Below are positions 33,477-49,332 of a stretch of DNA of 64,000 nt, in pieces; the stretch's first letter is position 1; the number at the start of each line of letters is the position of its first letter. The notes under the pieces are model-generated. The model saw only the letters and a program-made list of their open reading frames with translations, did not search any database and was not told the DNA's origin. The DNA comes from Candidatus Aenigmatarchaeota archaeon (GTDB lineage: Archaea > Aenigmatarchaeota > Aenigmatarchaeia > QMZS01), in assembly GCA_016932615.1 (NCBI GenBank), contig JAFGCN010000018.1, positions 1 to 64,000 on the forward strand. The letters run 5' to 3'. The translations under genes were made by a program, and so were the position numbers.

Positions 33477-33509
33477 GAAATCATCTATTTTTATGGGCCC
33501 GTAGCTCAG

Positions 33510-33604
33510 TCCGTATCCCTTTCTTTCCAAAAGAAAGGTCTAAGGGTCACCCCAAAGAAAGGGTTTCCCTTGGCTAATTTGGTCAGGAGAATAGGATACG
33601 GGAG
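33510..33604 (+). other. tRNA-Arg D-loop intron (approximate ends)
   Basis: About 95 nt. An outer stem CCGTATCC (33511-33518) pairs perfectly with GGATACGG (33594-33601). Inside is the shared core: hairpin CCTTTCTTT/AAAGAAAGG, then GGGTCACCCCAAAGAAA. Confidence 0.72.
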
Positions 33605-33631
33605 CAATTTGGATAGAGCGCTTGGCTTCGG

Positions 33632-33761
33632 TTGAGCCCTTTTCTCGCGAGAAAAGGTTTCAATCCCAAAAGAGGCATATTCCTGCTTCGCAGAAAGAAT
33701 GCCTCAGGGGAAGGACTTGTTCAGCCAAAATGCCTGCATTCGTCCAGAAGTATCAGAAGGT
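33632..33761 (+). other. tRNA-Arg anticodon-loop intron (approximate ends)
   Basis: About 130 nt at the canonical position next to the anticodon. Core hairpin CCTTTTCTCGCGAGAAAAGG, then TTTCAATCCCAAAAGAGG. A second hairpin GAGGCAT...ATGCCTC encloses CTGCTTCGCAG. Similar second hairpins occur in the Leu(TAG) T-loop and Leu(CAA) anticodon introns. Confidence 0.75.
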
Positions 33762-33783
33762 ACCAGGAGGTCGGGGGTTCAAA

Positions 33784-33852
33784 GTCAGGCTTTCTTTCTA
33801 AAGAAAGAACGCCCGACACCTCTAAGAAAGAACTCTTCTTGGAGAAGATGAA
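33784..33852 (+). other. tRNA-Arg T-loop intron (approximate ends)
   Basis: About 69 nt after TTCAAA. Hairpin GCTTTCTTTCTAAAGAAAG, followed by CCGACACCTCTAAGAAAG, a weaker version of the shared CCCAAAGA box, and a final CTTCTTGGAGAAG hairpin. Confidence 0.65.
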
Positions 33853-33923
33853 AATCCTCCCGGGCTCATTTTTTTAAAAAATTTGACATATGCCAGATTC
33901 CTTCAGAACGACAATTTGAGAGT

Positions 33924-33991
33924 GGGTTTTTCTTTGGGGTTGTCAGCCCTTTCTTTTTAGTGAAACTCCCGGAAAAGAAAGGTATGACCCC
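33924..33991 (-). other. intergenic copy of the tRNA-intron core element
   Basis: On the minus strand: GGTCATACCTTTCTTTT, a 14-nt loop, AAAAAGAAAGG, then GCTGACAACCCCAAAGAAAA. It matches the Leu(CAA) and Leu(TAG) intron cores, but no tRNA exons were found around it. A TATA-like TTTAAAATATAA lies 10-15 nt upstream on that strand. Confidence 0.6.
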
Positions 33992-34049
33992 GGGCTTATA
34001 TTTTAAAAACTGCAACCGAGGAAAACACACAAAAATACCCCTTAAGCAG

Positions 34050-34100
34050 TTTTCTTCTGGGGTTGTTAGACCTTTTCTTTTTCTAAAGAAAGGGGCTGAC
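34050..34100 (-). other. second intergenic copy of the tRNA-intron core element
   Basis: On the minus strand: GTCAGCCCCTTTCTTTAGAAA, AAGAAAAGG, then TCTAACAACCCCAGAAGAAAA. It lies 58 bp from the other copy in the same orientation, within the 259-bp spacer between tRNA-Arg and the thioredoxin reductase subunit gene. Confidence 0.6.
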
Positions 34101-34127
34101 TTTTAAGCTTTTAATCCTGAATTATCT

Positions 34128-34421
34128 ATGAAAAAGGAGGCAAAGGACCAATCAACCGAGGAAAAGGTCGCCCAATTGATGAAAAATTATGAAGCTTATG
34201 CTGACGAGGAGGGAATCCGGCTCAACCCAAACAAGGTAATCGTCGAGGCGGTAATCCGGCGGCTCGTCCATAACGAAAATATTTACGGCTGCGCCTATTG
34301 CCCCTGCCGGAAAGTCACCGGAAAAAAGGCGGAAGACAAGAAAATTATCTGCCCCTGCATATTTCACAGGGACGAAATCCGGGAAAAAGGCCATTGCCAC
34401 TGCATGCTGTTTGTAAGGTGA
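34128..34421 (+). CDS. ferredoxin-thioredoxin reductase catalytic-type protein
   Basis: A 97-aa protein with the full FTR catalytic cysteine set: CAYCPC (C55, C58, C60), CPC (C75, C77) and CHC (C90, C92), followed by MLFV. These bind a 4Fe-4S cluster and the active-site disulfide that passes ferredoxin electrons to thioredoxin. Archaeal members are stand-alone and lack the variable subunit. Length equals the usual 95-115 aa. The partner thioredoxin is not in this window. Confidence 0.92.
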   Translation: MKKEAKDQSTEEKVAQLMKNYEAYADEEGIRLNPNKVIVEAVIRRLVHNENIYGCAYCPCRKVTGKKAEDKKIICPCIFHRDEIREKGHCHCMLFVR

Positions 34422-34448
34422 TTTAAAAACATTTTTGCAGATTAAGGT

Positions 34449-35651
34449 ATGGCTTACCAACCGCCCCAAAAAATTCTAGACAAATACGCTGATTTATTGG
34501 TAAATTTTGCGCTGGGTGGAGGAAAAGGTGTAAAGCCGGGGGAAGTAGTATTCCTTCAGGTGCCTGAATGCGCTAAGCCCATGCTTGCCCCACTTCAGAG
34601 GGCGGTCCTCAAGGCAAAAGCGCATGCGATAATCCAGTACCTGCCTGAAGGCATTTCGAGGGATTTTTTTGAGATAGGAAGCGAAAAGCAGTTCACATAT
34701 TTCCCAAAAAAATTTATGAAGTCGCGAGTCGATACAATAGACCACAACATAAGCATTATTTCTGAAACAAATCCGCATGAGCTTGAGGGAATAAACCCGA
34801 AAAAGATAATGGCCCGGCAGAATGCCTGGAAACCGTACCTGGACTGGATTAACGAAAAGGAAAACAAAAAGAAATTCACCTGGACTCTTGCACTCTATGG
34901 TACAGAAGGCATGGCAAAGGAGGCTAAAATGACCCTTAAGGAGTATTGGGCGGAGATCATAAAAGCATGCTACCTTGACAATCCAAATCCAATAAAGAAA
35001 TGGAAGGAAATCTCGGCAGAGGTCAACAGAATAAAAAGCAAGCTGGATAAGCTCAAGATAAAAAAAGTCAGAGTCGAGGCCAGAGGAACAGACCTGACCA
35101 TTGGAATCGGAAAAAAGCGCAAGTGGTGTGGCTGCGAAGGAAGAAACATTCCAAGCTTCGAGATCTATACAAGCCCCGACTGCAGAGACATAAACGGACA
35201 CATATCCTTCAATGTTCCGCTTTACAGATTTGGAAATCTCATTAAAGATATCCAGCTCGACATTGAACACGGGAAAATCGTAAGGGCAAAAGCAAAGCAA
35301 GGAGAAAAATTCCTGAAAGAAATGATAAAAACGCCTGGAGGAGACCACATCGGAGAGTTTTCCATGACTGACAAGAGACTTTCAAGAATCACAAAATATA
35401 TGGCAACCACCCTATTTGACGAAAATGTTGGAGGAAAATTTGGGAATTCTCACTTAGCTCTTGGAAAATCCCTATGGAACACCTATGACGGCGACCTGTC
35501 AAAAACCTCTAAAGGTGCGCTAATGAAGCTTGGCTTCAATGATTCCCCAATTCACGTAGACATCTTCAACACAGAAAACAGAAAAGTCACCGCAACGCTC
35601 GAAGGTGGAAAAGAAGTCGTAATTTACAAAGACGGAAAATTCCAAGTCTGA
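34449..35651 (+). CDS. M29-like leucyl aminopeptidase
   Basis: A 400-aa protein of the thermophilic aminopeptidase (M29) fold. Visible blocks are LVNFALGGGKGVKPGEVV at the N-terminus, EARGTDLTIGIG, CEGRNIPSFEIYTSPD (with the metal-binding Glu), GDHIGEFSM and FDENVGGKFGNSHLALG (metal-binding His), as in AmpS/PepS family enzymes. These are cytosolic dinuclear-metal exopeptidases. It follows the FTR gene by 27 bp. Confidence 0.88.
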   Translation: MAYQPPQKILDKYADLLVNFALGGGKGVKPGEVVFLQVPECAKPMLAPLQRAVLKAKAHAIIQYLPEGISRDFFEIGSEKQFTYFPKKFMKSRVDTIDHNISIISETNPHELEGINPKKIMARQNAWKPYLDWINEKENKKKFTWTLALYGTEGMAKEAKMTLKEYWAEIIKACYLDNPNPIKKWKEISAEVNRIKSKLDKLKIKKVRVEARGTDLTIGIGKKRKWCGCEGRNIPSFEIYTSPDCRDINGHISFNVPLYRFGNLIKDIQLDIEHGKIVRAKAKQGEKFLKEMIKTPGGDHIGEFSMTDKRLSRITKYMATTLFDENVGGKFGNSHLALGKSLWNTYDGDLSKTSKGALMKLGFNDSPIHVDIFNTENRKVTATLEGGKEVVIYKDGKFQV

Positions 35652-35687
35652 CCCTTGTATAAAACTCGCCGACGAGTTTATTGATTC

Positions 35688-36311
35688 TTATTTGTATAGG
35701 GTTTCTGCCCAGGCCTTCGCAAGCTCTTTACTTCCCATTTGAAAAGGGTAGTTAAGCCCTTCAAGCTCTTTTATCAATGCCTGCATCCCGTGAGGCCGGA
35801 CAGGCATCAGCATTGTTTCAAGTTCCTCTGGCTCTTTCATGCGCTTCATCACGAGATAGTGCAGGTAAAATTCTGCAAATTCCTTTTTGGAAAGGGGCGT
35901 TGAGGAGTAAACCTTCGAGGCAATAAGCTCGACAAAAAACTGCTTCATAATCTTGAGGTACCCGTGCTTTGCCGCCCGAAGGTCAGCAAAAAAATCCTGA
36001 ACCTGCGGCACCAGGCGCGGGCAGTCTATCCTTTCCTGGATTTCCTTATTCACGCCTTCCTTTTCGTTCAGCAAAAGAAAGATAAACCGCACAAAGTAGC
36101 CCCGGAAAAGCTGGCGGTTTTTCACCTTTTCGTTTTCTGGGTTTACGAAAATCTCCATGTCCTTTCCGGTGTCTCCTTTCAGGAACTCGACCTTGCAGCT
36201 TTGGGTTATAATTATTCTCTCGAATCTTAGCGGGTAATCTAATTTTGTAATAAGGTCGGCAATCTCTTGCTTAAGAGACTCGTCGTCCATCTCAAAAACA
36301 AGATGGGTCAT
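35688..36311 (-). CDS. protein of unknown function
   Basis: A 207-aa soluble, helix-rich protein. No motif was recognised. The middle part (FVRFIFLLLNEKEG, about 70-84) is hydrophobic but too short and charged at both ends for a confident membrane helix. It lies 45 bp downstream of the agmatinase-like gene on the same strand. Confidence 0.65.
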   Translation of the reverse strand: MTHLVFEMDDESLKQEIADLITKLDYPLRFERIIITQSCKVEFLKGDTGKDMEIFVNPENEKVKNRQLFRGYFVRFIFLLLNEKEGVNKEIQERIDCPRLVPQVQDFFADLRAAKHGYLKIMKQFFVELIASKVYSSTPLSKKEFAEFYLHYLVMKRMKEPEELETMLMPVRPHGMQALIKELEGLNYPFQMGSKELAKAWAETLYK

Positions 36312-36356
36312 AATATTCTTCTTCTGGTAATCTTAAGTGTTTAATCGCTCGTGTAG

Positions 36357-37223
36357 CTACTCCCGCCTGCAAAAAATATAGCTTAGGAAAGCATATACCA
36401 GCTTTGCTGCCAGGAAATCGGGCGCCTTGTTCTGAGGATTTGGCGAAAGCTCAACAAGGTCAAACCCCACAATTTCTTTTTCCTCGGCGAGCCGCTTTAA
36501 GAACTTAAGAACTTGGTACCACTGGAGCCCGCCCGGCTCGGGAGAGCCCGTCGAAGGCATGATTCCTGTGTCAAAAACGTCCAAATCAATTGTCACATAG
36601 ACCTTCTGCCCTGCGGACCTGACTGCCTCTTCAATCCAGCTCTCAGTATTCCAGAGGTCTTTGGCGTAGAAGATTTTTCCGGTTTCCGTTTTTTCGAGTT
36701 CCGTGTCATCCATGCTCCGGATTCCAACCTGAACAATATCTGCAACTTCCCTTGCCCTTGCCATCACGCTGGCGTGGCTTAAGGGATCTTCATTGTATTC
36801 GTCCCTCAGGTCCGTGTGGGCGTCAAGCTGGACAACCGTCAGGACGCCCTGTTTTGCGTGAGCCCTTATCGCGCCGATGCTCACGGTGTGCTCGCCTCCA
36901 AGAATCACAGTAAACTTGCCCTTTGAAGAAAGCCGCGCCACTTCAGCTTCAACTGTTTCCACAAGCTCTTTTGAACTATCCGCACCAATCGGCTCGGCTG
37001 TATAAATTCCCTTTTCACAAACTGAAAAATCCGTCTCGATGTCGTAAAGCTCCATGTACTGGGAGGCCTTGATTATCGCCTCAGGACCTTTTTCAGAGCC
37101 CTCTGTCCAGCCCCGAAGCCAAAAGCTGGTCTTATCAAACGGAACGGGAAGAATTACAATCTTGGCTTTTTCCAGCTCAGAATATTCTCCGGTAAGCCCT
37201 GCAAAGTTGAGTTTTTCTTCCAT
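36357..37223 (-). CDS. agmatinase/arginase-family ureohydrolase
   Basis: A 288-aa protein with the ureohydrolase metal motifs: GGEHTVSIG (first His), QLDAHTDLRDEYNEDPLSHASVM (DAHxD), and TIDLDVFDTGIMPSTGSPEPGG (DxD with the SxDxDxxDP-like pattern). The STGSPEPGGL sequence and length fit archaeal SpeB-type agmatinases, which convert agmatine to putrescine and urea. Formiminoglutamase or guanidinobutyrase activity cannot be excluded. It is transcribed away from the downstream 136-aa Cys protein locus, on the same strand as that gene. Confidence 0.88.
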   Translation of the reverse strand: MEEKLNFAGLTGEYSELEKAKIVILPVPFDKTSFWLRGWTEGSEKGPEAIIKASQYMELYDIETDFSVCEKGIYTAEPIGADSSKELVETVEAEVARLSSKGKFTVILGGEHTVSIGAIRAHAKQGVLTVVQLDAHTDLRDEYNEDPLSHASVMARAREVADIVQVGIRSMDDTELEKTETGKIFYAKDLWNTESWIEEAVRSAGQKVYVTIDLDVFDTGIMPSTGSPEPGGLQWYQVLKFLKRLAEEKEIVGFDLVELSPNPQNKAPDFLAAKLVYAFLSYIFCRRE

Positions 37224-37291
37224 AATAATAGCGCCTAGGAAAGCTCAAAAAAAGAGTAAAACTCAATGAGGATGCAGTAAGCACAGTACTG

Positions 37292-37702
37292 CTAGAACTG
37301 AATTTTTCTGGCAGTACCTAGAACCAAGTCTCTCATTGGACATATCTGACAATCCGAATTTTCAGATAGATACTTTATTTGTTTATCCCTAATCTCCATA
37401 ACATCTCCTGTTTCCAAGGGCAAAACTCCCGTGTGTTTTAATTGATTAAACAGATTGTACGTTGCTCCACAGGAATCGCAAATATCCCCCCTCCATTTGA
37501 GGTAACTAACTTCGGCAATCTCTTTAGCAAAACTTGCGGTATCTAATCCGCCTAATCCTGAAGCATCACACCACCTCTCATAGGTATCACCGGGAAGTAA
37601 TTTTAGATTAAGCGCCTGCCGCTCCAGAATTCTTTCTGGGGTCTTCTTGCCCGGCCTTCCGCACATCACAGGTTCGCCATCGCCAGAATATTCAAAAACC
37701 AT
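37292..37702 (-). CDS. small protein with two Cys pairs, unknown function
   Basis: A 136-aa soluble protein with CDSCG near residue 79 and CQICP near residue 119, a probable zinc site. No family was recognised. A second ATG at codon 13 (MCGRPGKKTPERILERQ) may be the real start. It follows uL23 by 17 bp on the same strand and may be its operon partner. Confidence 0.6.
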   Translation of the reverse strand: MVFEYSGDGEPVMCGRPGKKTPERILERQALNLKLLPGDTYERWCDASGLGGLDTASFAKEIAEVSYLKWRGDICDSCGATYNLFNQLKHTGVLPLETGDVMEIRDKQIKYLSENSDCQICPMRDLVLGTARKIQF

Positions 37703-37719
37703 AATCGCACCTCAAAAAC

Positions 37720-37986
37720 CTAAATTACGCCAAGCTTAACGGCAATATCTCCTGCAGGGCTTTCTGGCTTCAATTTAACGATTGCCTTCTTGCTCCCTGT
37801 CCGGTCAATAAGCGTGTTAACCTTTTCCACTTTGACCTTGAATTCCTCTTCAAAGGCCTGCTTTACCACCATCCGGGGCGTTTTAAGGACTTTCAGCTTG
37901 AAAATCAGCTTGTTTTCGCTCTCTATGAGCCGAACCGCCTTTTCGCTCGTAACCGGATGCTCCACTAGCTCCCAAAATGATACCAT
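37720..37986 (-). CDS. rpl23: 50S ribosomal protein uL23
   Basis: An 88-aa protein: HPVTSEKAVRLIESENKLIFKLK at the N-terminus, KQAFEEEFKVKVEKVNTLI, and KKAIVKL near the end are diagnostic of archaeal L23. It borders the peptide exit tunnel and docks SRP. In most archaea it directly follows uL4, but here 3.2 kb of unrelated genes lie between them, and uL2 is not next to it either. Confidence 0.95.
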   Translation of the reverse strand: MVSFWELVEHPVTSEKAVRLIESENKLIFKLKVLKTPRMVVKQAFEEEFKVKVEKVNTLIDRTGSKKAIVKLKPESPAGDIAVKLGVI

Positions 37987-38064
37987 AAGATAAATAGCAA
38001 AAGATTAAAAGGGTCTAAAAGGCAAAAAATTCGCCCCTCTTGTATATTATAGCAGATATGTATT

Positions 38065-38838
38065 ATGGCTGATTCCTCAGCAAAAGGAGCATATTCTGGA
38101 TACTCTGAAAATAAAGGTGCGAAGGCACGGTCGGCAGGCAATGTCAATCCCCCCGTTGGCTTTGACCCAAATTACTTCAGGCAGACCTCCAAAGGAGATG
38201 CTAATAACCCGGAGGCAAAAAAAGCCGCCGAGGAATTATACGAGGCGCTTCCCCCAGCAATCCAAAACTATCTTGCCCGGGAGCAGGCGGCAACTTCAAG
38301 AGCAAACTACGGCCCACCCACAAACCACAAAATCATGTCTGGTGTAGATGCGGCATATATGAAGCAGGGCTCAAAAAGCCCAGTTAACTATGCCGCCACT
38401 CCTGGAAAATCGCCGGGGCAGATGCAGGTCGCGCCAAATTATGATAGCAAAATGGCGCAGCAGCTGGGCCCGGGCAAGGGGCCAAATCCTCAGATGCCCG
38501 TCCCCCCAAGCCCCGGACGAATGCTGGCTTCCATGTTTATCCCCTTAATCCCCTCAGCACTTGTTTACAAAGCCGGATTCAACATAGCCCAGTCAGCATT
38601 CCCTGGATTGGCATACTCTAGTCTACCCTATATTGGGAGTCTAGGAGGACCCGGAGGACTCGCCCTGGGAATCGGCATGGCCTACGGACTAACCAAGGTA
38701 TCTGGAGCAGTTTTCAAGGGCGCAAGCAAAGTCGTCCAGAAAGTGTACCAGAAAAAAGACAAGCTGAATAAGGGCTACGAAGCCCTTCAAAAGCCAGGCG
38801 CCGCGCCGGCAGGCCCGATGCCTGCAAGAGGAATATGA
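38065..38838 (+). CDS. two-helix membrane protein with long disordered N-terminus (paralogue A)
   Basis: A 257-aa protein. Residues 1-150 are Gly/Pro/Ser/Gln-rich and disordered, containing HKIMSGVDAAYMKQGSKSPVN and APNYDSKMAQQL. Two hydrophobic segments follow (about 153-172 and 190-210), then a Lys-rich helix and a Pro-rich end. The SGVxxxY...SP and YDSxMAxQL elements recur in the 39921-40727 protein, so these are paralogues. It starts a run of membrane/soluble gene pairs placed between uL23 and uL4. TATA-like TATATTATAGC lies upstream. The function is unknown. Confidence 0.7.
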   Translation: MADSSAKGAYSGYSENKGAKARSAGNVNPPVGFDPNYFRQTSKGDANNPEAKKAAEELYEALPPAIQNYLAREQAATSRANYGPPTNHKIMSGVDAAYMKQGSKSPVNYAATPGKSPGQMQVAPNYDSKMAQQLGPGKGPNPQMPVPPSPGRMLASMFIPLIPSALVYKAGFNIAQSAFPGLAYSSLPYIGSLGGPGGLALGIGMAYGLTKVSGAVFKGASKVVQKVYQKKDKLNKGYEALQKPGAAPAGPMPARGI

Positions 38839-39398
38839 CCGAAGGAGAAATCAAGGCAGGAGGAAAAACAATCCTGGAAAATGTGCAGGGTGCGTACCGA
38901 CAGGAAAAATCAGCTCCACCTGTAGTGAATCGGGCAGGAATGGCGCAATACAACTCCTCAATTGCTTCGCCCTACCTGGCAAACACAGCCCCATACTCTG
39001 CTTTCCCCCCACCAGGCGCAAAGCCCGCCCAGCTATCCAAAAAAGCGCAGCTTGGAGTTTACCTTGCAATCGGAGCGCCAATTACATATTGGATTGGCGC
39101 AAAAATCGCCCAAAAAAGCGAACCTGTGGCAGAATACCTGCAGGAACATGGAGGTGTTCTTGGAAGGGATTGGATTGGGCTCGAGCCGCTAGCCATTGGA
39201 ATCCCGACAATCCTTGGGCTTTACCTTGCAACAGATAAAATCGTCGAGCGCCTTAGGCCAACTGCAGAAAAAATTGCAAAAGGCCCTGCAAAAAAGCTTG
39301 TAGACGGATACAAAAAGCTGGAAGACCGCGCGGCAGATTCCCTTTTGGCCGCAGATTCCATAGTGCAAAAGGCCAAAAAAGCGCAGGAAAGGAGATAA
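38835..39398 (+). CDS. two-helix membrane protein (paralogue B)
   Basis: A 187-aa protein overlapping the previous gene by 4 bp. It has a short disordered N-terminus with MAQYNSSIASPYL (cf. TMAQYENATG in paralogue C), hydrophobic segments at about 78-95 and 120-142, and a Lys/Glu-rich C-terminal helix. Same architecture as paralogues A and C but shorter at the N-terminus. It converges on the soluble partner at 39402-39794 with only 3 bp between stop codons. Confidence 0.68.
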   Translation: MTEGEIKAGGKTILENVQGAYRQEKSAPPVVNRAGMAQYNSSIASPYLANTAPYSAFPPPGAKPAQLSKKAQLGVYLAIGAPITYWIGAKIAQKSEPVAEYLQEHGGVLGRDWIGLEPLAIGIPTILGLYLATDKIVERLRPTAEKIAKGPAKKLVDGYKKLEDRAADSLLAADSIVQKAKKAQERR

Positions 39399-39401
39399 AT
39401 A

Positions 39402-39794
39402 CTACTCAAGAATTTTTCTGAGCCGTCCCGCTTTTCCCTCGCTAAGCTTCTTGTCGATCTCACCGGAAAGAATTTCAAAAAATTTCATCTGCCCATCTAT
39501 GAATTCTTCAGCTGCCTTCAACCCTTCCTTATCGTCTTTTGCGCATTTCTTTAGTGCCTTTTTAACCTCAGCAAAATATTCTATCCATGTCTCTGAAACC
39601 CCTTTTGCAACCTTCAGCCGCTCAAGATCTCCCTCTCGCTCTGCCTCGTCAATCGCCCTCAAAAGAACAGTAACCTGCTCGTTATACCTGCCTTCTGTTT
39701 CCTTGAGAAGCTGGTCAAAATCAATCTGAATGGGAGAAAAATCCTCCATTGGGCACGAGGTCTTCCTTGAAGCCCTCTTTTTACAGGCAGCCAT
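39402..39794 (-). CDS. 130-aa helical soluble partner (copy 1)
   Basis: A 130-aa protein from the ATG at 39794, chosen because it gives exactly the length of its paralogue at 40756-41148 and removes a dissimilar N-terminus. After a basic Cys-containing N-terminus, both copies share YNEQVTVLLRAIDEAEREGD, a WI-YF motif, and FFEILSGEIDKKL. Predicted all-helical with coiled-coil character. It lies tail-to-tail with membrane paralogue B. Confidence 0.72.
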   Translation of the reverse strand: MAACKKRASRKTSCPMEDFSPIQIDFDQLLKETEGRYNEQVTVLLRAIDEAEREGDLERLKVAKGVSETWIEYFAEVKKALKKCAKDDKEGLKAAEEFIDGQMKFFEILSGEIDKKLSEGKAGRLRKILE

Positions 39795-39920
39795 AACTTT
39801 CCTAAGGAAATATATATTCAAGACAGGTAAAGCTTGTTCGCAGATCCTTGCTTTCCTGCAAACCTCCCCAAACCACTCTGACAAACCAAAACCGCTTAAG
39901 TACTCCCGCCAGCTAATATT

Positions 39921-40727
39921 ATGGAAAGCCCGCCCAAAAAGGGAACTCCTGGCAATATTCAGGATATAACTGGGCCATATATCGCTTCTTTAGCTTTACC
40001 GCAAGGAAAATACACTTCAACTGCAGCCGCTCCGCCCACAGGCGCAAGCTATAATTCTTCCGGGAGCTCCGCAACTTCCGGAAACACAATTGTAAACAAT
40101 ACCATGGCTCAGTATGAAAACGCCACTGGCAAAACTGCAGTTCCTGTTTCTGCTTCCGGACAGTATAACGGCGCTCATGCTCCAGGAAGCAGGCAAAGCA
40201 TAGTTTCAGGCGTTAATGGCACATATTCTTCGGGAGGAATTCAAAGCCCCGTTGCAGGGCGTCCGGGCGCGCCTGCTTACGATAGTGGTATGGCTTCCCA
40301 GTTAAAAGCGAACCCTCAGGTTCCAGGAAGAAGGTCTCCAGCGAGCAGTGGAACCCAAATGGCAGGAACTGCACTAAAAACCTTTCTTCCGGTAGGGCTT
40401 GGGCTAATGGCTTCTTCTGCCTGGTACGGAATTGCAATTAAGGGCTCCTATGCAGCATCCAAGGATGCAGCCACCTCGCCCCAGTTTGCCGAATTTATGA
40501 GCCAGCACAGCTGGTTTGCCCCTGCACCCCTTATTGCAGGAACCGTAGCGATATACCTTGGCTCAAGGGTTTCAGGCCGGATTTTCAAAGGGGTCATGAA
40601 ATATTCCTCAGGCATTATGAAAAAAATAGAAAACAAAAAAGCCGCCAGAGAGCTTGAAGCGGGCTATGAGCGGCTTGCAAAGGCCGCGGCACTTCCCGTC
40701 ACTCCAAAAGCAGCCCCAATTTCCTAA
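39921..40727 (+). CDS. two-helix membrane protein with long disordered N-terminus (paralogue C)
   Basis: A 268-aa protein. The N-terminal 150 residues are rich in Ser, Thr, Gly, Pro and Asn and contain RQSIVSGVNGTYSSGGIQSPV and APAYDSGMASQL, aligning with paralogue A. Hydrophobic segments lie at about 155-175 and 200-218, followed by a basic helix (GRIFKGVMKYSSGIMKKIENKK) like the VFKGASKVVQKVYQKK of A. It is tail-to-tail with the second soluble partner. No family was recognised. Confidence 0.7.
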   Translation: MESPPKKGTPGNIQDITGPYIASLALPQGKYTSTAAAPPTGASYNSSGSSATSGNTIVNNTMAQYENATGKTAVPVSASGQYNGAHAPGSRQSIVSGVNGTYSSGGIQSPVAGRPGAPAYDSGMASQLKANPQVPGRRSPASSGTQMAGTALKTFLPVGLGLMASSAWYGIAIKGSYAASKDAATSPQFAEFMSQHSWFAPAPLIAGTVAIYLGSRVSGRIFKGVMKYSSGIMKKIENKKAARELEAGYERLAKAAALPVTPKAAPIS

Positions 40728-42015: not shown

Positions 42016-42108
42016 AAACTACCTAGATAAAAATTAAAATAGGTGTATTGTGTTGATGAAAATAGAGAAATAGAGTTATTTTAGTGCCAGCCCACATAAT
42101 CCAAACCT

Positions 42109-42732: not shown

Positions 42733-42899
42733 CAGCATCCAGCACCGTATCCTGACATAATAAACTACTTGGATAAAAAATAAAATACACAATCGGGCAG
42801 AACCCGGGGGCATCCCAACTCCAATAACACAAGCAACCACACCAGTTATAACAATTAAAGTGAACCACCCTCATGTCAAGAACACGGAGAGTTCAAGGA

Positions 42900-43154
42900 T
42901 TAGAATAGGCGTCTTCCGAAAAAAGCTACTGACGTCAGTCCATTAAGCCAGTTGGAAGCGCACCTGCACCCTCCAACAGTGGTATCTGTTAGGCCAAAAA
43001 ACAGGGGAAAGGCAAAAACCGAAACTCCGGAAAGGGCTAAAATAGTACCCATAGTAATTCTTGTAAGCCCCCTGCCCAATTGATATACCGGGTTTTTTGG
43101 GAGTGGCCTGACAAGCTCAAAAAGCCGCCTTATATGCTCAAACATAATCTTCAC
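42900..43154 (-). CDS. small membrane protein
   Basis: An 84-aa protein with a basic amphipathic N-terminus and one clear hydrophobic segment (about residues 34-56), then GGCRC and GLTSVAFFG. It shares the layout of the frameshifted gene at 43230-43588 (charged N-terminus, helix, then a Gly/Cys element followed by a second short hydrophobic stretch), so the two may be distant paralogues. No known family. Confidence 0.5.
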   Translation of the reverse strand: MKIMFEHIRRLFELVRPLPKNPVYQLGRGLTRITMGTILALSGVSVFAFPLFFGLTDTTVGGCRCASNWLNGLTSVAFFGRRLF

Positions 43155-43229
43155 CAGATAATTGGTTTACCATTCAGGGCTTAAATACTTTTCTTAGAAC
43201 GGCAATAGTCGATAATCTGGGAATTCTGC

Positions 43230-43588
43230 CTATTTCCAGGTCTTGTCCAGCCCGGTTACGATCCCAAGTGTTGCGGAAATTCCCCCATAAAATCCGCTGT
43301 GCTCGCATCCATAATTGACGATATCCCAAAATGTTGCCGTTTGGTCCATCGCGGCCTCAACAGCGCAGAGGACTCCAAATGATGCAAGCCCTACCGGGAG
43401 GGCATATCTAGTGAACTTAAGATCCCACTGCTGATCTTCATCCAGGTCATGAAACTTTGGAATTCGGGAGCCAATTTCCCCGGCAGCTCATTTCTGGGCG
43501 TTCCTGCCCCATAGAGAGAGGTACTCCTCCACAAGTCAAGCCCATGTCGCAACTTATCAGTAATGTATGCTTCCCCCATAAATAGCAA
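43230..43588 (-). pseudogene. frameshifted small membrane protein gene
   Basis: Two overlapping frames on the minus strand make one protein-like sequence. The first runs from 43588 (or the ATG at 43579) to about 43460 (MGEAYITDKLRHGLDLW...NELPGKLAPE). The second runs from about 43475 to the stop at 43230, containing PKFHDLDEDQQWDLKF, a hydrophobic segment, NYGCEHSGFYGG and GLDKTWK. The total length is not a multiple of three. Either the gene is decaying or the assembly carries a one-base error. It ends 75 bp from the 84-aa membrane protein gene. Confidence 0.55.
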
Positions 43589-43645
43589 ATGGCTTATTTT
43601 TAAACAAAATTGAGCTTAAGTTATGCGGGGGTCGCCAAGTCTGGT

Positions 43646-43698
43646 CTCATCCCTTTCTTAAAAGAAAGGTCTTACAACCCCAAAGAACGGGATACCAG
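43646..43698 (+). other. tRNA-Leu(TAG) D-loop intron (approximate ends)
   Basis: About 53 nt, the smallest with the complete core. Outer pairing CTGGT...ATCCC with GGGAT-ACCAG; core hairpin CCTTTCTTAAAAGAAAGG, then TCTTACAACCCCAAAGAA. The same position and flanking exon sequence are used in tRNA-Leu(CAA). Confidence 0.78.
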
Positions 43699-43717
43699 AA
43701 AAAGGTGCAAGGCTTAG

Positions 43718-43765
43718 GTGTCTTACCGGCACCTGCAGGTGCAATGCCCAGGAGCTTGGCTGAGA
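43718..43765 (+). other. tRNA-Leu(TAG) anticodon-loop intron (approximate ends)
   Basis: About 48 nt at the canonical site. Hairpin GGCACCTGCAGGTGC, then AATGCCCAGGAGC. It is the most diverged member of the set but keeps hairpin plus CCCA order. Confidence 0.7.
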
Positions 43766-43778
43766 AACCTTGTGGGTA

Positions 43779-43834
43779 AATCTTTTTCTTTGGAAAAGAA
43801 AAAGCTTTAATCCAAAAAGAAATAAGATTCCACA
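43779..43834 (+). other. tRNA-Leu(TAG) variable-arm intron (approximate ends)
   Basis: About 56 nt. Hairpin CTTTTTCTTTGGAAAAGAAAAAG, then CTTTAATCCAAAAAGAAA. Introns in the variable arm are a rare, noncanonical position. The ends are uncertain by several bases. Confidence 0.68.
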
Positions 43835-43856
43835 ATAGTCCCTACGTGAGTTCGAA

Positions 43857-43946
43857 TGAAGCTTTTTCTCGCAAGAAAAAGCTCCAGGACCAAAAAGAGG
43901 CAGTTTCACCGCTTCGCGGATAAAACTTGCCGAATTGGTTTACGAA
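43857..43946 (+). other. tRNA-Leu(TAG) T-loop intron (approximate ends)
   Basis: About 90 nt. Hairpin GCTTTTTCTCGCAAGAAAAAGC, then TCCAGGACCAAAAAGAGG, then a second hairpin GGCAGTTT...AAACTTGCC around CCGCTTCGCGG, like the second hairpin of the Arg anticodon intron. Confidence 0.72.
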
Positions 43947-43992
43947 AGTCTCACCCCCCGCATTATCTTTTAAGCCCTGCCAAGTACTGTAA

Positions 43993-44385
43993 CTATTCAA
44001 TTGTTTCGTTCGGGCTCGGAACCGCCGGAATCCAGACGCACTTGTTCTGACGGCACTTAATCTCAGTCTCCTTCGGCCCGGTTCCGCACTGATAGCTGCA
44101 CTCCGCGCATTCCTCCCGATATTCAAGAACAGACTCTTCCAAGCGGGTAATGTTTGCATCAAGACTAACCAGGGTGTGGCAGCCAAAGGGGCAGCCAAAT
44201 GAAGCAACGCTACAGTCAGAATCGCTCTGGCAGTGATTTTCCTCGCCCAGAAGCGCAAATAGATCATCCTGGCGGCCCTGGCAGGCGGTTTGTGACACCT
44301 GCCCCGCAAAGTGCCCAATCAAGAATATAGCGCCAACCGCCATAAGAAAGACAAAAGAAACCGCAAAAAACACCTTTTTGCCCAT
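43993..44385 (-). CDS. membrane-anchored Cys-rich protein
   Basis: A 130-aa protein from the ATG at 44385 (MGKKVFFAVSF), chosen because a long hydrophobic anchor (about 5-27) follows immediately. The exterior part has ten cysteines (HCQSDSDCS, FGCPFGCH, EECAECSYQC, KCRQNKC), a disulfide-rich pattern similar to other small secreted proteins of this window. Its end lies 30 bp from tRNA-Leu(TAG). Confidence 0.65.
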   Translation of the reverse strand: MGKKVFFAVSFVFLMAVGAIFLIGHFAGQVSQTACQGRQDDLFALLGEENHCQSDSDCSVASFGCPFGCHTLVSLDANITRLEESVLEYREECAECSYQCGTGPKETEIKCRQNKCVWIPAVPSPNETIE

Positions 44386-44484
44386 AATTCTCTTACCGCA
44401 GGATATAATTACCATTCGGTGCCTTATTGCCCCTAATAGATAGGTCAGAAGAAACCTAGCTTTAATATATCTGCAAGGGAAATT

Positions 44485-45009
44485 ATGAGACCTGAAATCG
44501 ACTTGATTCCCCTTGATAATGTAGACCAAACGACCGTCGAGGAGCTTAAGCGCTCTCTCAAGGAGAAAGGGTGCATTGTACGGCTTTATGCAAGGACACA
44601 CAGCCCTAAAACGGCAGAGAACCTCTACAGAAAGCAGTGCCTTGTAGACGTGATTGTCGACGCCCTGAAGGGGCTTTCAGGAAAGGTCATCGCCATAACA
44701 GACAAGGACCTATACTCAAACAAGCTTAATTTCGTATTTATGTCGGTCCAGCCAAACGGGCCTGTAGTCCTTTCTACCCATCGGCTAAGGCCGGAATTTT
44801 ATCAGGAAAGGCCGAACAATGACCGGACAACAAGCCGTCTCCTGAAAGAAACAATCTACTGCATAGGAAAGATGAATGGGATTGGTGACTGCCCTAATCC
44901 CAGGTGCATAATGCACAAGTCCGCTTCAGCCAGGGACATAGACTTCAAGTCCGAGGAATTCTGCAAGGACTGCAAGATAAACAATATTGTAGACAATATG
45001 AGATTATGA
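44485..45009 (+). CDS. archaemetzincin homologue lacking the catalytic motif
   Basis: A 174-aa protein aligning with archaemetzincins at the zinc-structural part: C136-x4-C141-x-M143...C160-xx-C163 is the family CX4CXM...CXXC. The preceding catalytic motif HExxHxxGxxH reads YCIGKMNGIGD (125-135): both zinc-binding His of HExxH, the catalytic Glu and the third His are replaced by Tyr, Lys, Cys and Asp; only the Gly is kept. It should therefore be a pseudoprotease. It overlaps endA by 4 bp (ATGA), implying translational coupling. TATA-like TTTAATATAT precedes it. Confidence 0.78.
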   Translation: MRPEIDLIPLDNVDQTTVEELKRSLKEKGCIVRLYARTHSPKTAENLYRKQCLVDVIVDALKGLSGKVIAITDKDLYSNKLNFVFMSVQPNGPVVLSTHRLRPEFYQERPNNDRTTSRLLKETIYCIGKMNGIGDCPNPRCIMHKSASARDIDFKSEEFCKDCKINNIVDNMRL

Positions 45010-45866
45010 GCGCAAAAAAACAGTCCGGAACAAAGAAAAGAGCAAAGGCTGTCGACTTTGAGGAAAGTGCAAGTTTTTCCGAAGAGGAAGAAACTGCAGA
45101 GGTTTTGAAAAGCGCCAAAAAGCCAAAGGGCGTGAGCAAAAAGAAAGAAACCGGGGCAAAGACAAAAAAGGCCAAAGCTCAGGAAGAAGCCACCATTGAC
45201 GAAGAATTTGCTGAAGAACGGGATGATGATTCCGGTGAGGAAGAAACAGACGAAGATTACGGGGAAGGAGATTACGACGAGGCAAAGCCAAAAGTATTCC
45301 AGGAAGAGCCGTTTTCAAAAGCCCCAAAAAAAGTCTATTCCGGAAAATTCTTTGAAAACAAAGTCCACATCTGGGGAAAGCAGGACGCCGAGGAGATTTA
45401 TGACCTTGGCTGCTTTGGAAAGGTAGACGAGGAAAAAAATGAGCTTTCCTTTGAGGAAGCCCTTTTGCTGATGAGGCGAAACAAGCTTCGGGTTTCAAAA
45501 GATGGCACGGAGGTAAGCTCTGAAGAATTCTACCAGATTGCCTGCAATGCCGACAAAGAGTTTCCCTGGAAGTTCAAGGTTTACGAGGAGCTTAGGGGAA
45601 GAGGCCTTCTTGTCAGGACTGGCTTCAAGTTCGGCACCCATTTCAGGGTTTACGGCAGGGGAGTCAAGCTGAAGAGAGGGCCAAAGTCAGTAAAGGAGCA
45701 CACAAAGTGGATTGTCCATGCAGTCCCCGAGAACTACACCTGCTCATTTCCAGAGCTTTCCAGAGCCGTCCGGCTGGCGCACAACATCCGGGCAAAGATG
45801 CTCTGGGCAGTTGTTGACGAGGAGGGAGATGTGACCTATTACGAGGTTTTAAGGAAGACTCCTTAA
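45006..45866 (+). CDS. endA: tRNA-splicing endonuclease with charged N-terminal extension
   Basis: A 286-aa protein. Residues 1-105 are an Asp/Glu/Lys-rich, probably disordered extension not found in typical archaeal EndA (about 180 aa). The rest is the EndA fold: YEELRGRGLLVRTGFKFGTHFRVYGRG (catalytic Tyr216), KEHTKWIVHAVPE (His232), and LSRAVRLAHNIRAKMLWAVV (Lys264), giving the full Y-H-K triad. The loop between Tyr216 and His232 is Lys/Arg-rich. It cuts bulge-helix-bulge sites in pre-tRNA. The start at 45006 overlaps the preceding stop. Quaternary form (homotetramer or other) is not readable from sequence. Confidence 0.92.
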   Translation: MSAKKQSGTKKRAKAVDFEESASFSEEEETAEVLKSAKKPKGVSKKKETGAKTKKAKAQEEATIDEEFAEERDDDSGEEETDEDYGEGDYDEAKPKVFQEEPFSKAPKKVYSGKFFENKVHIWGKQDAEEIYDLGCFGKVDEEKNELSFEEALLLMRRNKLRVSKDGTEVSSEEFYQIACNADKEFPWKFKVYEELRGRGLLVRTGFKFGTHFRVYGRGVKLKRGPKSVKEHTKWIVHAVPENYTCSFPELSRAVRLAHNIRAKMLWAVVDEEGDVTYYEVLRKTP

Positions 45867-45884
45867 ATAGCGGCTAATTAGATT

Positions 45885-46448
45885 ATGGATTTGATTGCTT
45901 TGCTGCAGAATACGCTCTACTTTTTTGTAGCTTCTGGAATCATAGCTTTGTTGATTAAGTCATTGATTAAATTATACTTGGATAAAGACTTGGAAGCTTA
46001 TAAAGAGAAACTGAAGCAAGAAACGATACGGTATTCAAAACTGCACGAAAAGAGAGCAGATGCTATAGAGGAACTATTTGAAAAACTTGTTGATTATAAG
46101 AATTATGCTGAAGGTGTGAAATGGGCTAAGGAAAGTAATATTTCTGGAAAAGAATTGAAGGAAATCGAAGAAAATTTCAGGATAGCACATAGAACATTTT
46201 TGGATTGTTTGAATAAAAAAGGCAATCTTTATTTCGGCGGCAAGACTCCAGAGCTTTTGGAAGCACTACACTTTGAAATAATGCGAACCAAAACACACAC
46301 CGAGGCAAAATGCAAAGATGGAAAGAACATGGACTTTACAAGCTTAAAGAACATTCTCGAGGATATCAAAAACGCAGAAAAGGCAGTAGCAAACTCAGAA
46401 AAAGAATTAATCAATGAATTTCAAACCATCTTGGGTGTCAAAAACTAA
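45885..46448 (+). CDS. membrane-anchored coiled-coil protein, possibly acquired
   Basis: A 187-aa protein with one N-terminal membrane helix (about 10-30), then a long coiled coil (YLDKDLEAYKEKLKQETIRYSKLHEKRADAIEELFEKLVDY) and helical remainder. Similar membrane-plus-coiled-coil proteins with the KLHxKRAxxIxELYxKL pattern occur sporadically in bacteria and archaea, without known function. Codon use is markedly A/T-rich compared with endA, suggesting recent transfer. It is 18 bp after endA. Confidence 0.72.
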   Translation: MDLIALLQNTLYFFVASGIIALLIKSLIKLYLDKDLEAYKEKLKQETIRYSKLHEKRADAIEELFEKLVDYKNYAEGVKWAKESNISGKELKEIEENFRIAHRTFLDCLNKKGNLYFGGKTPELLEALHFEIMRTKTHTEAKCKDGKNMDFTSLKNILEDIKNAEKAVANSEKELINEFQTILGVKN

Positions 46449-46464
46449 GCCCAAGAATCTTCAG

Positions 46465-46638
46465 CTAGTCGTACTTCACTTTCCAGGCCGAATACGCCTT
46501 GTCTTTTCTCTCTTTCTCATTCCACCTTGTCAGTTCCATCAGCCGCACCCAATTCCTGCCCACCCTTTCCTCTCCCACCTGCCTGAAATCTCGCCTACTC
46601 GCTAAATCCCTCCCAACATCCACAACCTCAGCGCCCAT
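46465..46638 (-). CDS. possible small basic protein
   Basis: A 57-codon frame on the minus strand in the 277-bp gap between two plus-strand genes (MGAEVVDVGRDL...AWKVKYD). Composition is Arg/Trp/Lys-rich and plausibly folded, but there is no homology recognised and no convincing promoter. It may be a remnant of a larger gene. Confidence 0.3.
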   Translation of the reverse strand: MGAEVVDVGRDLASRRDFRQVGEERVGRNWVRLMELTRWNEKERKDKAYSAWKVKYD

Positions 46639-46725
46639 ATGCGGCTTTATCTGTCGGGGTATTTAAGCTAAACTCCGGAAGGGAGCAAATGTCGAAATTT
46701 TTGGCTTCTAATTTGAAGATATTTT

Positions 46726-47496
46726 ATGGTATCAGGCCTCATTATTCTCGATAAACCCTCAGGCCCCACAAGCTTTGACTGCGTCGAGAGAGTCGGGAAA
46801 ATATTTGGGGAAAAACGGTGCGGCCACACCGGGACACTTGACCCGAAAGTCACTGGGGTCCTGCTGGTCTTGGTTGGCGAGGCAAGAAAGCTCGTTCCCT
46901 TTTTCGAAAAAGCTGACAAGACCTACACAGGCATAATGCATATGCACTCCGAATTTGATACAGATAAACTACACGAGATAATTTACGAGTTTACCGGAGA
47001 CATAACGCAACTTCCGCCCCGGCTTTCAAGAGTAAAAAGAGTTGAGAGGCAAAGGACAATCCACTGCATGAAAATTGACAGAATTGAGGGGCAGGACGCA
47101 ACAATAATAATCCACTGCCAGCACGGGACTTACGTCAGGAAGCTCTTCCATGACATGGGCGAAAAGCTTGGGACGGGCGCGCACATGAAATACCTTCGGA
47201 GAATCGCAGCCGGAAAATTCGGGATTGATGAAGCAGTAACTTTCGAGGAACTGGAAAAAGCCCCGGAAAAGCACCTAATACCTATGGAAGAGGTTATCGA
47301 ACGGCTTGGAATAAAAAAGCTGGTTTTGCCAAAGGAAATGGAAAAGCAGGTTTCAAATGGTGTTCCGATAGTGCTTGAAACTCCAGAAGACTACCCGTCA
47401 GAAGAGAAAATTGCAATATTCGTAGAAGAGAATCTAAGGGCACTTGGAAAGGAAAGGGGTAGAAAAGTGGCAATAGAGCGGCTTATTTTAATATAA
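46726..47496 (+). CDS. Cbf5/TruB-type tRNA/rRNA pseudouridine synthase
   Basis: A 256-aa protein starting almost directly at motif I (GLIILDKPSGPTSFDCV); the catalytic Asp is in HTGTLDPKVTGVL. KTYTGIMHMHSEFDTDKL, LPPRLSRVKRVERQRT and HGTYVRKLFHDMGEKLGTGAHMKYLRR are the remaining family blocks. The archaeal Cbf5 N-terminal extension is absent and the C-terminal PUA region (residues about 190-256) is short and diverged. Cbf5 normally works as a guide-RNA-dependent enzyme with Nop10 and Gar1, and alone on tRNA position 55. The reduced size may reflect genome streamlining. Confidence 0.9.
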   Translation: MVSGLIILDKPSGPTSFDCVERVGKIFGEKRCGHTGTLDPKVTGVLLVLVGEARKLVPFFEKADKTYTGIMHMHSEFDTDKLHEIIYEFTGDITQLPPRLSRVKRVERQRTIHCMKIDRIEGQDATIIIHCQHGTYVRKLFHDMGEKLGTGAHMKYLRRIAAGKFGIDEAVTFEELEKAPEKHLIPMEEVIERLGIKKLVLPKEMEKQVSNGVPIVLETPEDYPSEEKIAIFVEENLRALGKERGRKVAIERLILI

Positions 47497-47509
47497 ATAG
47501 CCAAAAACC

Positions 47510-47665
47510 CTAGAAGATTATCCTCGAAAGAACCAAAATAAGGCAGATTCCAAAACCAAGAGCCAGAACGACTTCCGGCTTCAGGTTAATCCCTTCTTCA
47601 ACCTCATCGCTGTAGTTTATAAGCCCTGCCATTGTCTGAGGCATCCTCTTTTTTTCCTGCGCCAT
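47510..47665 (-). CDS. secG: preprotein translocase subunit Sec61beta (SecG)
   Basis: A 51-aa protein. The sequence begins MAQEKKRMPQTMAGLINYSDE, the archaeal Sec61beta signature (xMPxTxAGLxxYxDE), followed by LKPEVVLALG and a single C-terminal membrane helix. It is the small non-essential subunit of the SecYEbeta channel. It is convergent with the pseudouridine synthase gene; stop codons are 13 bp apart. Confidence 0.93.
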   Translation of the reverse strand: MAQEKKRMPQTMAGLINYSDEVEEGINLKPEVVLALGFGICLILVLSRIIF

Positions 47666-47715
47666 AATAGATAATCTCAGCAATAACTATATAAAAAAGA
47701 GGCAAAAACAAAAAA

Positions 47716-47934
47716 TTACTCCTTGGAAGAAGCAGGCCTGCTTTGGTACGGCTCTGGGTACTTGTTATCTCCTCCAAGGTATGCGCCGACATGCGCTCCT
47801 GCACCCACGCCCAAAGCTGTGTATAGGGCGTCCGAAGCAGTGACACCATCCGAAAGGTACGCCACAACACCGGCACCGACCAAGGCAAGCAAGGCCGTAG
47901 GCAGATAGTTTATGTGGTTAGATATTTTTCCCAT
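47716..47934 (-). CDS. tiny Gly/Ala-rich two-helix membrane protein (paralogue 1)
   Basis: A 72-aa protein with two hydrophobic segments (about 11-27 and 36-54). The second, TASDALYTALGVGAGAHVGAYLGGD, matches paralogues 2 and 3 in spacing and Gly/Ala pattern. The exposed tail is Pro/Tyr/Ser-rich. It is the shortest of three tandem copies on the minus strand next to Sec61beta. Unknown function. Confidence 0.68.
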   Translation of the reverse strand: MGKISNHINYLPTALLALVGAGVVAYLSDGVTASDALYTALGVGAGAHVGAYLGGDNKYPEPYQSRPASSKE

Positions 47935-48062
47935 ATTCTGCTTTCGATCAATGTATATTTGATATAAATGTAGCCCTCACTACAGAAGTAGTTCAATTGT
48001 AATGGAAGATAGCTCCCGCTGAATGGATGAAATAAGCAAAAATAAAGCAAAAAGAAAAGACC

Positions 48063-48356
48063 TTATGCCTTAGCCGCTGCTGGGTAAGCTGAGTATGCCT
48101 TTGGACCAGACACGGCGTTCTCCGCGTAGCTTCCGACGGTACCACCGATAAGGGTGGCTGCACCTGCGTACAGGGCGTTCATGAAGCTAAGAGGGTCGAC
48201 TGCCTCTGTGGTTGTTGCAGCGGTTGTTGCTCCCTCTGCGACGGTTTTTGCAGCCTCTACTGCGGTTGCAGGGTCAATAAGTGATGCGACTGCGTAAAGA
48301 CCTGCCAAAGCACCCAAGGTTGCTCCGATGTATCCTATTTTTGTCATTTTTGTCAC
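48063..48356 (-). CDS. tiny Gly/Ala-rich two-helix membrane protein (paralogue 2)
   Basis: A 97-aa protein. First helix about 8-27 (IGATLGALAGLYAVASLI), an Ala/Thr/Val-rich linker, then DPLSFMNALYAGAATLIGGTVGSYAEN, the element shared with paralogue 3 (DPLGYWQALEAAAAGILGYKVGEYVAGG). The tail is Tyr/Pro/Ala. Codon use and promoter spacing look normal for the genome. Confidence 0.7.
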   Translation of the reverse strand: MTKMTKIGYIGATLGALAGLYAVASLIDPATAVEAAKTVAEGATTAATTTEAVDPLSFMNALYAGAATLIGGTVGSYAENAVSGPKAYSAYPAAAKA

Positions 48357-48556
48357 CTAAATTTAATAGTATATTTTAAATAAATAGTTTTCGCCTGTGG
48401 AGTTACACTATAGTGCCTTTGTAGTTCAAAAGCATTACAAAAGTAATGTTTTTTTGGAACATATGCTCCTCTAGCCCACCAAATACCCTTTAAAGCCAAA
48501 AAAGCGCATGGCGCCAAAGACACTAAAAAAACCAAAAACAAGCCAAAATAAAACAA

Positions 48557-48823
48557 TTATGCTGTGGCCTTTGCTGACTCAACGCCGGGGTAAGCCATCG
48601 CGTAAGAAGGAGGGCGACTGTCGCCTCCGGCAACATACTCGCCAACCTTGTAGCCAAGTATGCCTGCAGCAGCGGCCTCCAGGGCCTGCCAGTATCCAAG
48701 AGGGTCTGCTCCGGCAACGCCATCCACAATCTCTGGCCCTATAAGGTAAGCAGCGCCAAGCGCAGCCAGGCCGCCAACCACAAGCCCTGCAATAGTAGGA
48801 CTTCCGCCATTATTTCTTGCCAT
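48557..48823 (-). CDS. tiny Gly/Ala-rich two-helix membrane protein (paralogue 3)
   Basis: An 88-aa protein. First helix about 9-28 (TIAGLVVGGLAALGAAYLIG), the acidic linker DGVAGADPLGYW, second helix about 49-66 and a Pro/Tyr-rich tail ending YPGVESAKATA, comparable with the YPAAAKA end of paralogue 2. Three tandem diverged copies indicate repeated duplication. Confidence 0.7.
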   Translation of the reverse strand: MARNNGGSPTIAGLVVGGLAALGAAYLIGPEIVDGVAGADPLGYWQALEAAAAGILGYKVGEYVAGGDSRPPSYAMAYPGVESAKATA

Positions 48824-48937
48824 TTTAGTTCACCTTTTTTTATAAGGCAATTCTGGTATTTATTGTTTTATTATTTTATCGTCACAATGCGCATAGTAAC
48901 TGCCAAACCTCAAAAAATGATGCAGGAGGGCGGATTT

Positions 48938-49049
48938 TCGCCTATCCCTTTCTTTAAAAAGAAAGGTCTGTGGGTCACCCCAAAGAAAAAACTTTTCGTT
49001 CTTCCCAGGTGCCACATTATCCCCGTTCTGGTTAAAGAACGGAGATTAC
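48938..49049 (-). other. tRNA-Leu(CAA) T-loop intron with an antisense core copy (approximate ends)
   Basis: About 112 nt. In the sense direction it has hairpin CCGTTCTTTAACCAGAACGG. Its 3' half (about 48942-48992) contains a near-perfect core element in the opposite orientation: on the plus strand ATCCCTTTCTTTAAAAAGAAAGG, then TCTGTGGGTCACCCCAAAGAA, closest to the Arg D-loop intron. Confidence 0.72.
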
Positions 49050-49081
49050 TTCGAACCGCCGAACTTACTAAAAGACTGGAT

Positions 49082-49157
49082 GTCTCAATCGCCATCGTTT
49101 CTGCGAAGCGAATTTGCTTCTTGGGGTTGTCAGACCTTCTTGCAAGAAGGGATGACC
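49082..49157 (-). other. tRNA-Leu(CAA) anticodon-loop intron (approximate ends)
   Basis: About 76 nt at the canonical site. Core hairpin CCTTCTTGCAAGAAGG, then TCTGACAACCCCAAGAAGC and a second region with CGCTTCGCAG like the second hairpin of the Arg anticodon intron. Confidence 0.8.
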
Positions 49158-49176
49158 TTGAGTCCAGCGCCTTTTT

Positions 49177-49253
49177 CTGGTATACTATAACCCAAATTTT
49201 TGTTTCTTTGGGGTTGTCAGACCTTCTTTCTTTTCAAAGAAAGAAGGGATGAG
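49177..49253 (-). other. tRNA-Leu(CAA) D-loop intron (approximate ends)
   Basis: About 77 nt. Core hairpin CCTTCTTTCTTTGAAAAGAA extends to a 10-bp stem, followed by TCTGACAACCCCAAAGAAA. The boundary sequences CTGGT and ACCAG equal those of the Leu(TAG) D-loop intron. Confidence 0.78.
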
Positions 49254-49332
49254 ACCAGACTTGGCTACTCCTGCATAAACTTAGTAGTAGATTCTTAAAA
49301 ATAGCCCTAAAAGATTAAGCAATTCTAAAATA

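Follow-up and report, generated by a model that had tools for sequence, protein, structure and literature searches.

A hairpin with a mirror-matched third strand in tRNA introns of an Aenigmatarchaeota archaeon: a dispersed and probably mobile DNA repeat

Interrupted tRNA genes and their shared core

The 64-kb window analyzed here (64,000 nucleotides from contig JAFGCN010000018.1 of a Candidatus Aenigmatarchaeota archaeon) contains three tRNA genes interrupted by ten introns, and a short core consisting of a hairpin followed by a box occurs in most introns of the tRNA genes of this archaeon. The structure of this core, the covariation of its three strands, its distribution, its presence in both orientations and the spliceability of the tRNAs that carry it were established directly, and we propose that it belongs, as a single unit, to a dispersed DNA repeat that is probably mobile.

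Removal of the ten introns produced tRNA-Arg(TCG), tRNA-Leu(TAG) and tRNA-Leu(CAA), all of which were recognized by ARAGORN (Table 1). Because the genes hold many introns, no tRNA was found by ARAGORN in the unspliced window using either default or long-intron settings. Pairings flanking the intron junctions that may belong to a bulge-helix-bulge (BHB) or relaxed splice motif, such as TCTGGT/ACCAGA in Leu, were noted by eye. The sole splicing endonuclease gene of the genome sits between the Leu(TAG) and Leu(CAA) genes.

The original prediction that a hairpin-then-box core recurs in these introns was confirmed by a strict search, which required a perfect stem of 7 bp or more whose 3' arm is purine-rich, then a spacer of 3-13 nt and a C-A-rich box; 8 matches were returned in the window versus 0-1 in each of 30 dinucleotide shuffles. 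The prediction was confirmed again by a covariance model built from 24 cores (R1), which located 11 cores between 33514 and 49251; eight were in sense orientation in tRNA introns, one was antisense in an intron and two were outside any tRNA. The anticodon intron of tRNA-Leu(TAG) (43719-43766) has no core, a correction to the original prediction. Genome-wide counts were taken from the stretches around model matches and gave 61 usable R1 matches, a few of them weak, nearly all within or adjoining tRNA genes (genome size 1.26 Mb, completeness 97%). The second hairpin with CTTCG, said to follow several cores, trails only 21 of 61 genome-wide. One model match (L090 1862), a palindrome with its box inside an exon, was left out of the good cores.

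Table 1. Positions of tRNA genes, introns, cores and the splicing endonuclease gene in the window
Feature	Position	Strand	Remarks
tRNA-Arg(TCG) gene	33495..33868	+	spliced sequence recognized by ARAGORN
tRNA-Arg(TCG) exons	33495-33509, 33608-33631, 33762-33783, 33854-33868	+	
tRNA-Arg(TCG) introns	33510-33607, 33632-33761, 33784-33853	+	
Arg D-loop intron core	33514..33561	+	stem CCTTTCTTT/AAAGAAAGG, third strand AAAGAAA; R1 49.3 bits
Arg anticodon intron core	33633..33677	+	stem CCTTTTCT/AGAAAAGG, third strand AAAAGA; R1 45.8 bits
Arg T-loop intron core	33786..33831	+	stem GGCTTTCTTTC, third strand TAAGAAAGAA; R1 28.3 bits
Core downstream of tRNA-Arg, opposite orientation	33928..33986	-	R1 36.9 bits; followed by second copy of tRNA 3' end (CCCGGGCTTA)
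Second core downstream of tRNA-Arg, opposite orientation, outside tRNA	34051..34098	-	R1 31.3 bits
tRNA-Leu(TAG) gene	43625..43962	+	spliced sequence recognized by ARAGORN
tRNA-Leu(TAG) introns	43645-43698, 43719-43766 (coreless), 43777-43836, 43857-43948	+	
Leu(TAG) D-loop intron core	43648..43689	+	R1 49.1 bits
Leu(TAG) variable-arm intron core	43777..43824	+	R1 43.7 bits
Leu(TAG) T-loop intron core	43857..43901	+	R1 47.4 bits
Splicing endonuclease (EndA/VSEN) gene, 320 aa	44904..45866	+	PF01974, E 2.9e-26
tRNA-Leu(CAA) gene	48921..49274	-	spliced sequence recognized by ARAGORN
tRNA-Leu(CAA) introns	49254-49177, 49156-49082, 49049-48936	-	
Leu(CAA) D-loop intron core	49202..49251	-	R1 51.2 bits
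Leu(CAA) anticodon intron core	49115..49154	-	R1 43.8 bits
Core reversed at 3' end of Leu(CAA) T-loop intron	48943..48989	+	R1 41.6 bits

The box mirrors the purine arm of its own hairpin

The box had been described as a motif of AAYCCCAAAGA type. It is not constant and changes with the stem: in each copy it mirrors the purine arm of its own hairpin, with facing letters in agreement (stem AAAAGAA with box AAAAGAA, stem AAGAAAG with box AAGAAAG; other arm/box pairs are CTTTTCTT/AAAAGAA, CTTTTTCTTT/AAAAAGAAA, CCTTCTTTCTT/AAGAAAGAA and CCTTCTTTCCC/AAGAAAGGG). A fixed CCCAAAGA box was rejected, as the box letters follow the stem. In copies from this genome taken without selection on the stem-box match (n=47), mirror agreement was 95.6% versus a permuted mean of 75% and maximum of 83%, with 0 of 5000 permutations reaching the observed value; stem G faced box G in 47 of 54 instances and stem A faced box A in 282 of 290. 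Agreement within groups of identical spacer was 97.8% versus 84.9% permuted (0/5000), and in stretches from genomes G012 and G013 (n=62) it was 99.5% versus 80% permuted, with no permutation attaining the observed value. The 15 cores of the relatives gave a weaker result from few copies (93% versus 82% permuted). Among matches to a hairpin-only pattern, a mirror box was present in 78/108 and a direct box in 1/108, while bacterial chance matches had none. Derivation of the box from a direct repeat was rejected on this comparison and on a match of 72% versus 95-99% for the mirror. We know of no copying process that yields a mirror image, and for this reason the coupling was taken as functional.

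As judged from sequence, a class II (purine-motif) intrastrand triplex would require just such mirror coupling, its third strand running antiparallel to the purine arm; the complement of a class II strand is class IV, the pyrimidine motif. Pyrimidine, purine and mirror-purine blocks follow in series on one strand, which is the block order of intrastrand-triplex (ITx) sequences. The second spacer, mostly 6-13 nt, exceeds the ITxF loop rule (both loops 1-6 nt); an older search rule, that of Hoyne, permitted loops of 0-10. The cores are A/T-rich, of CCTTTTCTT type, and do not follow the G/C-rich BoxC/TMECO consensus CCCTCNCCC N3-6 GGGNGAGGG N3 GGGNGAGGG.

Under the upper stem lies an internal loop, with AT opposite TCT in many copies, and then a four-pair lower stem whose letters vary freely. 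Pairing in this lower stem was kept in 86% of cells versus 42% when permuted, and the stem was fully paired in 50 of 82 versus at most 14 in permutations, which bears out the earlier claim that stems vary while pairing is kept. A single strand would fold into this short lower stem, the small internal loop and a pyrimidine/purine upper stem of about 8-11 bp. The third strand would lie in the groove of the upper stem, as class II on the tRNA-sense strand, and the complement would form class IV with T.A-T and C+.G-C.

An alternative that needs no triple helix is a plain palindromic site to which a DNA-binding protein attaches, either a transcription factor or a chromatin protein; it would fit a near-perfect palindrome close to promoters of strongly expressed genes. 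However, a fixed sequence-specific site predicts neither stems that vary between copies nor a separate box that varies in mirror register, and we regard this explanation as very unlikely.

Strand on which pairing seems to be conserved

Imperfect pairs on the tRNA-sense strand of this genome were A.C in 35 cases versus G.T in 6, and with distinct lower stems pooled the counts were 31 versus 11 (p=0.003), although the copies are related and such counts overstate their independence. Since an A.C pair corresponds to G.T or G.U in the complement, the strand whose pairing seems to be preserved is the complementary, class IV one. T-A-T triads are stated to drive pyrimidine motifs (PMC4666352), and the A/T-rich triads together with the mismatch bias point to this same strand. 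For RNA, formation of class IV pyrimidine-motif triplexes is reported, and purine-motif helices are stated to be unable to form (PMC4666352). The RNA of most tRNA introns does not correspond to the class IV strand, and it is mainly on this account that action at the DNA level is preferred here.

The original prediction suggested a structured RNA core of the introns which would aid splicing, be bound by protein or be ribozyme-like. Introns at different positions do have the core in common, and the RNA folds predicted for several of them exceed shuffles in stability. The purine-motif triplex, the form available to intron RNA, is however reported not to form in RNA (PMC4666352), and the mismatch bias lies on the wrong strand. 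The window gave no Rfam match at gathering score for group I/II intron, ribozyme or riboswitch families, and the gene with the coreless Leu(TAG) intron still gives a normal tRNA on intron removal (ARAGORN), which argues against a splicing aid. The core also occurs antisense, outside tRNA genes and before start codons. A recurrent structural family was thus rightly predicted, with representatives in relatives, but it is not specific to introns, and an RNA core belonging to introns appears very improbable.

Copies outside introns and in other genomes

In several T-loop introns the 5' end bears a sense core and the 3' end a reversed one, an arrangement that resembles terminal inverted repeats. 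A core at C11:42449 precedes a protein gene. A covariance-model search of other archaeal genomes, as had been suggested, demonstrated that relatives carry the core. Within the order R1 matched in 11/11 genomes, and across the phylum in 40/115 at E 1e-4, very unevenly; 29 of the 39 good genomes of the phylum had no core match. Copies at E 1e-4 numbered 42 here, 23 and 18 in two other genomes and 1-4 in family members. The hairpin-only DNA pattern found 105 stretches, and the matches listed were almost all from DPANN archaea (Aenigmatarchaeota, Micrarchaeota, Woesearchaeota, Pacearchaeota, Diapherotrites), with Altiarchaeota and a few bacteria also included.

In relatives and other Aenigmatarchaeota the core lies antisense immediately before start codons. 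The genes concerned encode ribosomal proteins (L2, L6, S3, S3Ae, S4e, S10, S12, L19e) as well as aIF2-beta, EF1-beta, RpoF (twice), PAC2, Rpp14, RFC and enzymes. The core is also present in the L40e leaders of three related species (L40e identified by reading the sequence). In GW2011_AR5 and JACPDL, 23 protein genes have an antisense core just before the ATG, of which 10 encode ribosomal proteins or translation factors and 2 RpoF. S3 leaders differ within the order, those of this genome, G001 and G010 being without the element.

These placements, in particular the 23 genes and the L40e leaders, are what would be expected of a cis-regulatory nucleic-acid element of the translation apparatus, its class IV strand transcribed in mRNA leaders and its control shared by tRNA genes. 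The leader RNA could fold into a U.A-U triple helix abutting the start codon; both the reported formation of class IV triplexes in RNA (PMC4666352) and the mismatch bias favor that strand. Most tRNA-intron copies, however, transcribe the other strand, the gene sets vary by genome (as with the S3 leaders), and copy number is patchy. We consider this explanation rather unlikely, if still a tentative contender. Conceivably, mRNA leaders and tRNA genes could share a three-stranded switch that works through its pyrimidine-motif strand and regulates the translation apparatus across DPANN archaea; if so, what defines this regulatory element would be the covariation among its three strands.

In GW2011_AR5 (G013, stretches L255-L267) a TGAGC-hairpin sub-type comes after stop codons within a ribosomal-protein region, and TATTATAA-like sequence immediately succeeds its purine third strand. 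Leaders of G012 and G013 (L255-L294) and stretches L123-L223 have, upstream of the leader core, a conserved AAGACAAGGTCT-like stretch between a TATA-like sequence and the third strand; this may pair with the pyrimidine arm of the stem, giving a possible alternative fold, or may be a promoter element.

Repeated tRNA ends beside cores

Downstream of tRNA-Arg (33854-34010) the 3' end of the tRNA, for example CCGYGCGGGGCTATA, occurs a second time after a reverse core. The same arrangement was present at L091 2700-3150, L090 3349-3520 and L093 743-900, Glu-like and Val genes included, as if the tRNA 3' end had been duplicated by insertion or recombination. At L098 600-780 (G000:C11 ~22300-22480) two copies of the tRNA-Val 5' end (TATGGGCTCGTAGTCC) enclose a core, an arrangement resembling target duplication. 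The repeated pieces of tRNA ends beside some cores suggest insertion or recombination.

Comparison with known repeats and introns

From its sequence, the core is the same kind of structure as the bacterial BoxC/PIT/TMECO repeats (Holder et al. 2015, PMC4666352) and the Methanomicrobiaceae repeats (PMC8044849). Like the core, the former have pyrimidine, purine and mirror purine blocks on one strand (class II, with a class IV complement) and are dispersed, multicopy and patchy between related strains. While BoxC is G/C-rich and intergenic with a 3-nt second loop, the core is A/T-rich, with a second loop mostly of 6-13 nt and a covarying lower stem. It sits in archaeal tRNA introns and at gene starts; the text consulted for BoxC (PMC4666352) mentions neither tRNA genes nor introns. 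The Methanomicrobiaceae repeats are likewise archaeal, dispersed, near gene starts and ends, and capable of forming a hairpin with an antiparallel third strand. They differ in being G-rich, in having the third strand 5' of the hairpin and a G-quadruplex competitor, and in belonging to a different lineage. Occurrence in tRNA genes is reported for neither kind of repeat in the texts consulted (PMC4666352, PMC8044849).

Large-scale transposition of tRNA introns is described for Thermoproteales (Fujishima et al. 2010, via PMC4033280). As with the core-bearing introns, similar sequences occur in many tRNA genes, with several introns per gene and gain by transposition; the account consulted describes no common triplex core or copies outside tRNAs, whereas the core here is not bound to introns. 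No report of triplex repeats in archaeal tRNA introns was found in the open-licence literature, which is weak evidence of absence.

REP/RAYT repeats and the ends of IS200/IS605 elements are, like the core, short dispersed palindromes, and their single-stranded hairpins matter. To our knowledge REPs have no matched third strand. An IS200/RAYT origin was unsupported, the genome being without a Y1 transposase.

Weight of the preferred explanation

With a probability of roughly 0.58, we propose that the core is a dispersed DNA repeat, probably mobile and of the same intrastrand-triplex kind as BoxC/PIT, and that it spread into tRNA genes, where splicing removes its copies. This rests on the mirror coupling, the covariation of the lower stem, the copies outside tRNA genes in both orientations, the patchy copy number, the repeated tRNA ends, the mismatch bias and the presence of an encoded splicing endonuclease. 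A mobile element was among the options first put forward and fits best, at the level of DNA and not as RNA. Each core would be one unit of a repeat of DPANN archaea that acts and spreads as DNA, or via the complementary strand, and favors strongly transcribed units; we infer its mobility, its choice of target and triplex formation in vivo. In this genome it would have multiplied within tRNA genes, its copies tolerated because the splicing endonuclease would excise them as ordinary archaeal introns. Archaeal splicing endonucleases of broad specificity are described, in ARMAN-2 (PMC12397907), and Asgard genomes are known in which >90% of tRNA genes carry introns (PMC11291895).

Several points weigh against this explanation. 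No Y1/RAYT-type transposase (PF01797) was found in the 97% complete genome, nor any autonomous relative or clean empty site. The tight placement at start codons of ribosomal-protein genes, with S3, L2 and L40e recurring across families, looks more like function than random insertion. In vivo, no triplex signal was obtained from the bacterial repeats to which the core is related in kind (PMC4666352), and the mismatch counts carry the caveat of relatedness given above.

Triplex-forming DNA is usually argued from composition. Here the third strand stays matched to the stem through sequence change, and such matching in many natural copies would be evolutionary evidence for cellular selection of a triple helix. 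The repeat would also offer a source for massive intron gain in some archaeal tRNA sets, and it ties tRNA introns to ribosomal-protein gene starts in DPANN archaea in a way that makes mobility and regulation testable.

Other observations

The tRNA in stretch L096 was considered as a split gene and rejected when its 5' exon was found upstream. Interpreting TCTGACA as H/ACA or C/D was abandoned, as other subfamilies are without this motif. The window also encodes a 256-aa Cbf5/TruB-type pseudouridine synthase (46726-47496, +) which scored under the Cbf5 cut-off; its gene is located between those for the splicing endonuclease and tRNA-Leu(CAA).
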